Assembly: GCA_022450155.1 (NCBI GenBank)
Contig: JAKUQR010000004.1
Span: forward strand, 1-64,000
Source of the DNA: Gammaproteobacteria bacterium
Lineage (GTDB): Bacteria; Pseudomonadota; Gammaproteobacteria; Arenicellales; UBA868
Length of the DNA: 64,000 nt
Direction: 5' to 3'
In this document: positions 43,128 through 48,254 of the stretch, one piece after another
Layout: each line of letters starts with the position of its first letter
How positions within the stretch are numbered: the stretch's first letter is position 1
Program-made: the position numbers and the translations under genes
The notes under the pieces: model-generated
The model's input: only the letters and a program-made list of their open reading frames with translations
Told to the model about the DNA's origin: nothing
Databases searched by the model: none

Positions 43128-43145
43128 GGTTACGCTCCAGTCTTA

Positions 43146-43225
43146 GAAAACGCCGTTAAATCGAAAATGACGACTGGGAATCCGAGCCTGGCGGGCCAGT
43201 GCCCGTTGCAGCGCTTCTCGGCAGC
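43146..43225 (-). promoter_or_regulatory. SAH riboswitch
   Basis: Directly upstream of ahcY. Conserved core on the minus strand: CCGAGAAGCGCTGCAACGGG, followed after a short loop by GCCAGGCTCGGATT and later AACGGCGTTTTC. P1 pairs CCGAG (43221-43217) with CTCGG (43186-43182). The last part can pair with GAAGCGC as the pseudoknot, with one bulge. This matches the ahcY-motif consensus, which turns the gene on when SAH accumulates. Confidence 0.88.
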
Positions 43226-44758: not shown

Positions 44759-47700
44759 TCAGTGTTTGCTCAGTTCGATATGCCAGTTGTGCACTTCAAG
44801 CGAACCGTCGACTGAATAATCTGGGTTGTGCCCAGAGTCAGTCCAGGATTCAGCCAGCGTCTCGGCCATGATCCAGTCGCGGTAGGACAGCAAGATACGG
44901 TCGATATCGGCTGAACCGGAGACATGCAGCCGAATGCGATCCGAGACTTCAAGACCCGCATTCTTGCGTGCTTCCTGAACACTGCGGACGATCTCGCGGG
45001 CCAACCCTTCATCGATCAACTCTGGCGTCAGCTTTGTATCCAGGCCGACGAGGAATCCTTCTGACTCGGCACTTGAATAGCCTGCGGCCGAGGTGGTTTC
45101 AAGCAACAGGTCATCGGGCTCAAATTCAATCTCCTGACCCGCGACGTCGAGGGTCACCGATTCGCCCCGAGCATGAGCAGACGCAACAGCTGCAGCGTCG
45201 GCCTTGGACAATGCTTCGCGGATAGCGGGGATGAGGCGGCCGTGGCGTTTGCCAATTCGCGGCAGGTTGGGCTTCAACCGGTAGGAGATAAGCTCAGCAT
45301 CTCGGGCAATAAACTCGAGGGACTTGACATTGAGTTCTTCCAGAACCTGTGTTTGCTGGTGTTTTATGGCGGCAGCGTGGCTGTCGGTGGGAACGCGGAC
45401 CAGCAGTCTGGCCAATGGCTGGCGTACTCGGATTCGACTACTTTCCCGGGCTGCCCGGCCAAGTCCGACCACTTTCTGGACAACATCGACCGAGGCGATC
45501 AGGTCGTCATCTTTCCACGCTGGATCAGGCTTTGGCCAATCGGTCATGTGGACACTGAGTGGGGCTGCCGTGTCCACAGTCCGTTCAAGGTTCTGGTAGA
45601 CCGACTCAGTCAGGAAAGGCATGAACGGCGCCATCAATCGATTAATTGTCTTGAGGCACAGATAAAGTGTCAGGTAGGCTGAATCCTTATCTTCACCGGC
45701 TTCGCTTTTCCAGAAGCGCCTGCGATTGCGCCGCACGTACCAGTTGCTCAACTGACCGACAAAACTCTCAATTGCTTCTCCGCTCGCCCGAGCATCGTAT
45801 TGATCCAGCGCCGCGGTGACGGTTTCAGTGGTGCGGTGGAGCAGTGCCAGGACCCAACGGTCGATTTCCGGTCGCTTTGAAACATCTAATGTTTGGGAGT
45901 AATCAATATTGTCCAGGCTCGCATAAAGCGTGAAAAATGCGTAGGTGTTCCAGAGTGTATTGATGAAGGAGCTTGCGACTTCAGCAATAATATTGATGGA
46001 GATCCGCTTCTGAACTTCCGGAGCAAGACGGGCCAGGAAATACCAGCGTAGTGGGTCTGCGCCTATGTGGTCAAATACATCGTAGGGGTTGACGATGTTA
46101 CCCAACGACTTGGACATTTTTTTGCCGTCTTTATCGACAATGTGACTCAGACAGACACAGTTGCGGTAGGCGACACTGTCAGAGACCAGTGTTGCAATGG
46201 CGTGCAGGCTGTAGAACCAGCCGCGTGTCTGGTCAATCGCTTCGCAGATGTATTCAGCTGGAAAATGTCGGTCAAAGATCTCCTGATTTTCGAACGGGTA
46301 GTGCCATTGGGCATAAGACATTGCCCCTGAGTCAAACCAGCAGTCAATCACTTCCGGAACACGGCGATACTCCTGACCCGTCTCAGGATGGTTGAATACG
46401 ATATCGTCAACGGCGGGTCGGTGGAGATCAACTTCGTCCAAAGACCGACCGCACAGCGCTTCGAGTTCCGCAATCGAGCCGATGCACACAAAATCCCCTT
46501 CTCCGTCGGTCCACAGTGGTAGAGGCGTACCCCAGAACCGTTCGCGTGAGAGCGCCCAGTCGACATTGTGTTCGAGCCAGTTGCCAAATCGCCCGTCGCG
46601 AATGGTATGTGGCACCCAGTTGATGGTCTGGTTCAGTGACACCATCCGTTCCCGAACAGCAGTCGTCTGGATGTACCAGGCGTTTTTGGCGTAATAGATC
46701 AGCGGGTCACCCGTCCGCCAGCCGAATGGATAGTTGTGCAGATATTTTTCCTGGCGGAACAACAGGCCTTGTGTTTCGAGCAGGTCGATAATGACGGGAT
46801 CGGCATCTTTGAAAAACAAGCCCGCTACCGGTGTCACCTCGGATTTGAAATAGCCATCGAGCCCGACGCCGTGGACGACCGGCAGATCATTGCGTTGTCC
46901 CAGCTCGAGGTCGTCGACCCCGTAGGCGGGTGCAACGTGCACAATCCCGGTACCATTGTCTGTGCTGACAAAGTCTGCCGCATGTACCCGACAGATGTCG
47001 CCGTCGGCTGCCAAGTGGTCAAACAGGCGTTGGTAGCGAAGTCCAACCAGATCCCGGCCCTTGACGGTTTTGATGACTTTGTGATCGGCTTCTCGCATGG
47101 TGCTTTGAAGTTGTGCCGCGGCAAGGATCAGAACCTCATCACCGTATTGGATGTAGACATAGTCGATGTCCGCACCCACAGCCAGGGCGAGATTGGATGG
47201 CAGGGTCCAGGGAGTGGTCGTCCAGACGAGAAAGGCGGTGTTGTCGGTCTCGGTCAGTCTAAAACGGACGGTGACTGACGGATCTTCGACCTCGCGATAA
47301 CCCTGCGCCACTTCGTGTGAAGATAGGGTTGCACCAATTCGGGGGTCGTAGGGGACAACTTTGTAGTCCTGATAGATCAGACCTTTGTCCCAGATGATTT
47401 TCAGCAGCTGCCAGACCGATTCAATGTACTGGTTATCCAGGGTGTAGTAGGCCTGGTCAAGATCCACCCAGAAACCCATCCGCTCGGTCATTTTTTCCCA
47501 GTCGCCGATATAACGCATAACAGACTCTCGACAACGTCGGTTAAATTCTGCGACCCCGATCTGCGACTCGATTTTTTGTTTGTCGAAAATACCCAGTTCT
47601 TTCTCGATTTCGTGCTCTACTGGCAGGCCATGGGTGTCCCAACCGCCCTTCCGCGGAGCATGAAAACCGCGCATTGTCTTATAGCGTGGGTAAATATCCT

Positions 47701-47911
47701 TGAATGTACGGGCGAGTACGTGATGTATGCCGGGACGCCCGTTGGCTGTTGGCGGCCCTTCGTTGAAGGTAAACAGAGGGCGGCCTTCGGTATTGGCTAG
47801 GGTTTTTTCGAATACCTGATTTTCTCGCCAGAAATCGAGCACATCAGATTCCAGTGTCGGACCATCGTATCGGCTAGAAGCCCTCTGGAATACCATCTCA
47901 TCGCTCTCCAT
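44759..47911 (-). CDS. ileS: isoleucyl-tRNA synthetase, type 2 (eukaryote-like)
   Basis: 1050 residues from ATG 47911. Charges tRNA-Ile. The HIGH region has the type 2 form PTANGRPGIHHVLARTFKD (Gly61-Ile-His63-His64), and KMSKS is at 598-602. The editing CP1 domain contains WTTTPWTLPSN. No C-terminal zinc-finger Cys cluster is visible, typical of type 2, the group with members that tolerate mupirocin. Gammaproteobacteria usually carry type 1 ileS with ribF and lspA, which are absent here. GGGGG lies six bases upstream of the ATG, inside a sequestering hairpin of the T-box leader. Probably acquired by transfer. Confidence 0.93.
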   Translation of the reverse strand: MESDEMVFQRASSRYDGPTLESDVLDFWRENQVFEKTLANTEGRPLFTFNEGPPTANGRPGIHHVLARTFKDIYPRYKTMRGFHAPRKGGWDTHGLPVEHEIEKELGIFDKQKIESQIGVAEFNRRCRESVMRYIGDWEKMTERMGFWVDLDQAYYTLDNQYIESVWQLLKIIWDKGLIYQDYKVVPYDPRIGATLSSHEVAQGYREVEDPSVTVRFRLTETDNTAFLVWTTTPWTLPSNLALAVGADIDYVYIQYGDEVLILAAAQLQSTMREADHKVIKTVKGRDLVGLRYQRLFDHLAADGDICRVHAADFVSTDNGTGIVHVAPAYGVDDLELGQRNDLPVVHGVGLDGYFKSEVTPVAGLFFKDADPVIIDLLETQGLLFRQEKYLHNYPFGWRTGDPLIYYAKNAWYIQTTAVRERMVSLNQTINWVPHTIRDGRFGNWLEHNVDWALSRERFWGTPLPLWTDGEGDFVCIGSIAELEALCGRSLDEVDLHRPAVDDIVFNHPETGQEYRRVPEVIDCWFDSGAMSYAQWHYPFENQEIFDRHFPAEYICEAIDQTRGWFYSLHAIATLVSDSVAYRNCVCLSHIVDKDGKKMSKSLGNIVNPYDVFDHIGADPLRWYFLARLAPEVQKRISINIIAEVASSFINTLWNTYAFFTLYASLDNIDYSQTLDVSKRPEIDRWVLALLHRTTETVTAALDQYDARASGEAIESFVGQLSNWYVRRNRRRFWKSEAGEDKDSAYLTLYLCLKTINRLMAPFMPFLTESVYQNLERTVDTAAPLSVHMTDWPKPDPAWKDDDLIASVDVVQKVVGLGRAARESSRIRVRQPLARLLVRVPTDSHAAAIKHQQTQVLEELNVKSLEFIARDAELISYRLKPNLPRIGKRHGRLIPAIREALSKADAAAVASAHARGESVTLDVAGQEIEFEPDDLLLETTSAAGYSSAESEGFLVGLDTKLTPELIDEGLAREIVRSVQEARKNAGLEVSDRIRLHVSGSADIDRILLSYRDWIMAETLAESWTDSGHNPDYSVDGSLEVHNWHIELSKH

Positions 47912-48215
47912 GAGTGAGCCCCCGGGATGCCTTGATTTGCGGCCTCCGGGGCGACTCGAACCTGTGGGGTCAATCAGAATCGGCGCGCGGTACCACCCGG
48001 CTTCGTCACCGGTCAAAGCTCGGCGACCTCATGGACAGCGTGCTGTCCGCAACCCGGTTTCGGGGGTCAACCGACTGAGTCTAGTGAACGCCGTGGCGTT
48101 GTTCGGTCAGTGGCTCAGGGGTGATATTCACCGGGGTCCGGCCCGGGGATTTCAGCGCCCCCCGGTCTCTGCTGCGCGAGCACGATCGGTTACTCGTCCC
48201 CATCATCGCCTTGAC
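47912..48215 (-). promoter_or_regulatory. T-box riboswitch leader of ileS (isoleucine-specific, translational type)
   Basis: On the minus strand the parts occur in the right order. Stem I base GGGG (48201-48198) pairs with CCCC after the specifier. AGTA at 48194-48191 and GAA at 48129-48127 make the loop-E motif. The specifier ATC (48125-48123) is an Ile codon. A distal AGAGA bulge and GNUG-like loop lie between. Stem II ACCGA..TCGGT and stem III GGACAGC/GCTGTCC follow. The T-box GGGTGGTACCGCG (47998-47986) has UGGU complementary to tRNA ACCA. GCCCC downstream can pair with GGGGGC just before the ATG, hiding the ribosome site, so control is probably of translation: uncharged tRNA-Ile would open it. 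Confidence 0.88.
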
Positions 48216-48218
48216 TGT

Positions 48219-48240
48219 GGCATTTCTTCTAACAAATGCC
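48219..48240. other. hairpin upstream of the T-box
   Basis: GGCATTT and AAATGCC form a 7-bp stem with an 8-base loop. If transcription starts near 48248 it would be the 5' end of the ileS leader. It could also be an operator between the divergent ileS and AEC genes. Confidence 0.4.
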
Positions 48241-48254
48241 CTACAGTGGAGCAA

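Follow-up and report, generated by a model that had tools for sequence, protein, structure and literature searches.

T-boxes have been described as limited to the Firmicutes, Actinobacteria, Chloroflexi and Thermus/Deinococcus, plus Geobacter (PMC3766115), and leuA T-boxes have been documented in Geobacter and Pelobacter (PMC2494555). The hisS leader of isolated Gammaproteobacteria was also found to resemble Firmicute T-boxes, with horizontal transfer suggested (PMC2965389). Described ileS T-boxes include the terminator-type elements of RF00230, as in Caldicoprobacter and Petroclostridium, and the actinobacterial elements (TBDB class II; Nocardia farcinica, Mycobacterium tuberculosis; PMC1262725, PMC10651847), which are translational and have a short stem I (PMC7778990) in which nucleotide C14 already lies within the apical loop (PMC10651847); in TBDB, translational T-boxes were searched for mainly in Actinobacteria. 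Proteobacteria generally have a type 1 isoleucyl-tRNA synthetase (IleRS; PMC4861432), and the GXHH motif of the type-2 enzyme has been linked to strong mupirocin resistance (hyper-resistance; PMC10485003).

Here we analysed a window, that is, the whole stretch of 64,000 nucleotides under study, from a gammaproteobacterium of the order Arenicellales (contig JAKUQR010000004.1), in which a T-box lies in front of a type-2 ileS gene (ileS2). The original prediction had stated that no T-box was known to be described in Gammaproteobacteria; we found no report of an ileS T-box from this class in the open-access literature, but the hisS leader mentioned above is an earlier hint of a T-box there.

The window's leader has in common with the Caldicoprobacter and Petroclostridium type a full stem I with distal module, an AUC specifier, stem II, a IIA/B pseudoknot, stem III, a UGGNACC bulge and a type-2 ileS downstream, and its gammaproteobacterial relatives also have the terminator. 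It is unlike them in its missing U-tract, its hairpin by the start codon and its gammaproteobacterial host, and the clostridial enzymes of the terminator-type group have HXGH where those of the window's group have GIHH. With the actinobacterial class II elements it shares an isoleucine specifier in front of ileS, the lack of a U-tract and a hairpin able to bury a G-rich stretch before the start codon, and it was to these that the original prediction had likened it. The likeness does not extend to the architecture: the actinobacterial stem I is very short, whereas here it is full length, at about 99 nt with an AGAGA bulge and a distal helix, and the element descends from terminator-type relatives that use intrinsic terminators. 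The ancestral platform is most simply taken to be a terminator. The leuA (PMC2494555) and hisS (PMC2965389) leaders are likewise T-box or T-box-like elements in a proteobacterium; unlike them, the present unit comprises ileS and a type-2 enzyme, occurs in several families and is kept by covariation.

The T-box leader and its specificity

The leader as a whole spans 48210-47918 on the minus strand, upstream of ileS. Every element named in the original prediction of a T-box in front of ileS was found on this strand, at the coordinates it had given. The features of the leader and of the gene are:

48112..48210, minus strand: T-box stem I, full length, from the model alignment; pairing in helices 1-4 reaches 91-100%, and both sides of the pairs have changed. 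The base helix GGC/GCC has a kink-turn-like GATGA/TGAG; the other parts are GGGG/CCCC, the specifier loop, ACCG/CGGT, the AGAGA bulge and the distal helix CCGGGG/CCCCGG.
48194-48191, minus strand: AGTA, a loop-E part, read from the sequence.
48170-48143, minus strand: AGAGA and the stem I distal loop, read from the sequence.
48123..48125, minus strand: AUC, the isoleucine specifier codon, read within GAA-U-AUC, from the sequence and its conservation in the aligned leaders.
48074..48111, minus strand: stem II with internal GAA / ACTA S-turn-like segments; helices 5 and 6 are 93.5% and 85.7% paired, with changes on both sides in every pair among the aligned leaders.
48051..48073, minus strand: stem IIA/B pseudoknot, CGG/CCG and GACCC/GGGTT; helices 7 and 8 are 87.1% and 68.6% paired, with some double changes, helix 8 being the weakest supported.
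48033..48048, minus strand: additional hairpin GGACAG-CTGTCC, lying after the pseudoknot and before stem III; helix 9, 58% paired, varies among relatives and is missing in some, in a region that aligns poorly.
48005..48027, minus strand: stem III, GTCGCC/GGTGAC; helix 10 is 93.2% paired, with changes on both sides in every pair.
47986..47998, minus strand: T-box sequence GGGTGGTACCGCG, whose bulge UGGUACC (47995-47989) would receive the ACCA end of the tRNA.
47946..48000, minus strand: antisequestrator or antiterminator, -17.2 kcal/mol when enforced; CCGGG (48000-47996) pairs with CCCGG (47950-47946), and GCG (47988-47986) with CGC (47953-47951). Its 3' arm, CGCCCCGG, is kept across relatives.
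47918..47952, minus strand: competing hairpin GCCCCGG...CCGGGGGC, without U-tract, -17.6 kcal/mol, enclosing GGGGG (47923-47919).
47909..47911, minus strand: upstream in-frame ATG (MESDEM...), 7 nt after GGGGG.
47894..47896, minus strand: probable ancestral start ATG (MVFQ...), which aligns with the N-termini of relatives, e.g. MSFSKV...
44759..47911, minus strand: ileS2, type-2 isoleucyl-tRNA synthetase with GIHH for HIGH (TIGR00392, E 1.4e-283; Pfam tRNA-synt_1; motif; tree).

RF00230 matched the window at 48215-47978 over the full model length, on the minus strand, with 61.6 bits (E = 6.9e-13), and when run against the whole genome it returned this leader as its one match (E 7.0e-13). The score is under the Rfam gathering score for RF00230 of 93 bits, which is a curation cut-off and not a biological feature, so that a default scan misses the T-box and reports only an S-adenosylhomocysteine (SAH) riboswitch in the window; three relatives exceed the cut-off, with 115.8, 99.4 and 96.4 bits. 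That SAH riboswitch (RF01057, 43.8 bits, above its cut-off; 43141-43225, minus strand) lies directly before ahcY, next to metK, and is a usual element in proteobacteria, in keeping with a gammaproteobacterial placement.

As had been proposed, other gammaproteobacterial ileS leaders were searched, and close relatives have the element at the same place. In an alignment of 31 leaders, the window's and those of its gammaproteobacterial relatives, with the structure taken from the window's leader, 86.4% of cells were paired against 69.7% in shuffles, and sliding the partner by 1-3 columns brought the paired cells down to 33-49%. Changes on both sides occurred in 40 of the 47 base pairs, and none of 500 shuffles matched the real alignment on any of five pairing measures. 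Reading the structure from one aligned sequence favours the percentage paired, but not double changes to such an extent. Covariation thus backs stem I, stem II, the IIA/B pseudoknot and stem III, and the pseudoknot least; the leader is a genuine T-box riboswitch.

The AUC specifier, which fits isoleucine, the amino acid of the regulated gene, does not change across the 31 aligned leaders, while the base preceding it does. The window's own tRNA-Ile gene was looked for in its assembly and not found; tRNA-Ile(GAU) of a same-genus genome (G002) has the discriminator A (A73), which matches the U of the UGGU bulge. In family f5 the bulge of two leaders (L027 and L028) is UGGC and not UGGU, and its expected partner would be a G discriminator; a search of family f5 genomes for tRNA-Ile found none.

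Distribution of the unit and loss of the native ileS

Within the window's order, 43 of 109 genomes had exactly one T-box match each, and all 39 of the T-boxes inspected precede ileS. Evenly drawn samples of the class and of the phylum gave a T-box in 2 of 369 and 2 of 399 genomes, one of the latter weak (26.1 bits, E 2.9e-4, in another Pseudomonadota genome), counts that are lower bounds since these scans used stricter filters. Records carrying the element include Woeseiaceae, Arenicellales and Chromatiales, together with a 4.3-Mb chromosome titled Pseudomonadales (L048). In one genome of the Arenicellales (G027; L022, 3323-4252, minus strand) a glutathione S-transferase-like gene stands between the T-box with its terminator and ileS, and there the switch may control a two-gene operon of this gene and ileS. 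We detected no T-box upstream of ileS2 in L175, L176, L177 and L178 (genus g6), L179, L180, L051 and L077, so that the T-box has apparently been lost repeatedly, in genus g6 and in a few others where ileS2 remains. One genome (G012, contigs C43 and C35; L175, L176) has a pair of almost identical ileS2 copies that share the very same upstream sequence, possibly as an assembly duplicate.

The enzyme groups with type-2 IleRS, and its GIHH fits the G/AXHH pattern and not HXGH. Its similarity to MupA and MupB is distant (836 and 791 bits, far under the 1900-bit cut-offs), and GIHH is the kind of change that PMC10485003 ties to mupirocin hyper-resistance. The genome holds one strong IleRS match. In the IleRS tree the gammaproteobacterial enzymes of the T-box type fall into a single clade (33 rows, SH-aLRT 100), whose sister is one other bacterium and which is separate from the other gammaproteobacterial type-2 enzymes, and the window's enzyme stands alongside Bacillota and Chloroflexota relatives; its nearest IleRS are those of other Gammaproteobacteria, then one other bacterium, Chloroflexota and Clostridia. 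The other gammaproteobacterial ileS2 lineages, about 44-47% identical, had no T-box, and in several members of the order without ileS2 the matches were only ~30% identical, as expected for the native type.

In E. coli, ileS sits between ribF and lspA. In the window's genome ribF is followed after 9 bases by lspA and then by genes reading as fkpB and ispH, with no ileS between ribF and lspA, which indicates that the native ileS was lost from its site; the T-box and ileS2 are located away from it, next to metK. Because a type-2 ileS is unusual in proteobacteria and the native gene is missing from ribF-lspA, the T-box with ileS2 would have displaced the native gene. An actinobacterial origin is ruled out by the long stem I and the IleRS affinities. 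A donor of the unit was searched for and not found: the nearest outside IleRS2 (L058, L060, L089, L094, L116) had no T-box, L060 with only 203 nt of upstream sequence, and the Clostridia that have T-boxes have HXGH enzymes. That T-box and gene were transferred together is thus suggested by their tight linkage and not by a donor.

The near absence of T-box reports from Gammaproteobacteria, and the fact that the genomes here are mostly MAGs, might suggest that a Gram-positive T-box and ileS were joined to gammaproteobacterial DNA through contamination or misassembly. We regard this as having a negligible chance of being true, given that the neighbours (a transporter gene, the T-box, ileS and metK) are constant across genera of the family in many independent assemblies, an order whose sharing already refutes it, and that the 4.3-Mb chromosome record has the unit as well. 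Moreover, IleS proteins inside the group are 65-94% identical, those from outside it reach only about 42-51%, and ileS is absent from the native site. The common gene order and the chromosome record likewise exclude misassembly with actinobacterial DNA in particular.

Terminators in relatives and the output of the switch

In 31 gammaproteobacterial relatives the 3' arm of the antiterminator, with CGCCCCGG or a sequence close to it, also opens a strong hairpin, and 5-8 T follow in nine bases, which marks them, as read from sequence, as classic transcription-terminating T-boxes. In the window 2 of the 9 bases that follow the stem are T, short of the U-tract of an intrinsic terminator, and all four genomes of its genus have only 2-3 in nine; the competing hairpin at 47952-47918 is, judging by its sequence, a descendant of the terminator hairpin. 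The U-tract is gone in the window's genus (four genomes), in the sister genus g5 and in genus g4, and is kept in genera g2 and g3 of the same family; it was lost once or twice within the family, the tree leaving this fork open. In the 13 U-less leaders alone, 91.9% of cells were paired against 78.5% in shuffles, with 89 compensated cells, and this compensated pairing implies that where the U-tract was lost the aptamer has been kept and is not decaying.

Family f12 shows a separate U-tract loss. Two of its leaders (L072 and L025) have no U-tract and a very long hairpin upstream of ileS, and their T-box strand and pre-start sequence pair at -18.0 kcal/mol, a value that none of 500 shuffles reached; this family has perhaps made a further independent change of platform. 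In genus g4 an invariant GCGCGA block, often trailed by a CCA-like triplet, stands immediately ahead of the start codon, and the T-box strand (UGGUACCGCGCG, which carries the bulge for the tRNA end) can pair with it. The pairing energies, from -10.6 to -16.5 kcal/mol, are only modestly better than those of shuffles (fractions 0.03-0.34 per sequence), and we offer the g4 pairing as a suggestive hypothesis. Two leaders of Woeseiaceae (L056 and L064) have long near-perfect inverted repeats within the loop of the T-box terminator hairpin, just upstream of ileS; these spare the CCCCGG/CCGGGG base and the U-tract, and they resemble insertions of small mobile elements.

In the window the antisequestrator (48000-47946, -17.2 kcal/mol) and the competing hairpin (47952-47918, -17.6 kcal/mol) share the arm 47952-47946, so that the two structures are mutually exclusive and nearly balanced. 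Uncharged tRNA-Ile(GAU) would pair with the AUC specifier through its anticodon and with the UGGU bulge through its ACCA end, stabilising the antisequestrator and withdrawing the 5' arm from the competing hairpin, so that ileS2 would be expressed; charged tRNA would be unable to pair in this way, the hairpin would form and expression would fall. For the window's T-box we infer both tRNA binding and this ON/OFF direction. In most relatives the switch would end transcription, and in the window's lineage, with the U-tract gone, the same switch would most likely act on translation start. Translational control is supported by the lack of a U-tract, the burial of GGGGG 7 nt before ATG 47911 and the exclusive structures. 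All four genomes of the genus have ATG 47911, but the likelier start is ATG 47896, which has its own Shine-Dalgarno-like GGAG at 47909-47906; this GGAG lies outside the hairpin and the buried GGGGG serves only ATG 47911, which weakens the sequestration model. A promoter scan recognised none.

It could be that the switch still terminates transcription, the GC-rich hairpin stopping RNA polymerase alone or with Rho or NusA, for the hairpin descends directly from the terminator kept in 31 relatives and still competes with the antiterminator. Against this stand the few T after the stem in every genome of the genus, a stem weaker (-17.6) than those of the U-tract sister genera (-24.7, -24.8 kcal/mol) and an in-frame ATG that now comes 7 nt after the hairpin, and we consider continued termination unlikely. 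That the element is a relic, which arrived along with the gene, has since lost the terminator and has ceased to regulate, appears more improbable still: although the U-tract has been lost, the whole T-box has disappeared from a sister genus and some others, and model scores are lower in the window's family (48-76 bits) than in several other families of the order (up to 116), compensating changes maintain the pairs within the U-less lineages, and the specifier, the T-box core and the antisequestrator 3' arm are invariant across genera while the intervening sequence varies.

The best explanation as a whole, which we hold to be likely, is that a tRNA-Ile T-box, forming a unit with a foreign type-2 ileS that displaced the native ileS in the ancestors of these Gammaproteobacteria, controls the only detected IleRS and does so at translation here. 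The aptamer, its specificity, the two competing structures, the terminators in relatives and the absence of the native gene from its site form its computed basis; for the last step alone, the proposed translational output, we would claim reasonable confidence. The original prediction, that the element works and controls translation by tRNA-Ile charging, is borne out as to a complete isoleucine-specific T-box before ileS in a gammaproteobacterium, while its translational step is plausible and no firmer. We propose only tentatively that a T-box with full stem I, which Gammaproteobacteria acquired together with an essential gene of foreign origin, switched inside one family from terminating transcription to controlling translation along at least two routes: in the window's genus and g5 the former terminator hairpin came to sit beside the start codon, and in g4 the tRNA end would compete with an mRNA imitation of it at GCGCGA.

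Implications for the host lineages

T-boxes are otherwise known mainly from Gram-positive bacteria, and here one stands before a gammaproteobacterium's only detected ileS. Most of these members stay hidden beneath the Rfam cut-off, so the T-boxes of Proteobacteria are undercounted in surveys. The outright loss of the T-box in genus g6 and some others indicates that the switch is useful but dispensable in some lineages. Related genera with the terminator, without it and without the T-box constitute a natural series for a change of riboswitch output from transcription to translation. Our data point to an RNA switch and a foreign synthetase having taken the place of an essential native gene in several families of Gammaproteobacteria, and such a replacement means that the switch must work with the tRNA-Ile, the polymerase and the ribosome of the host.
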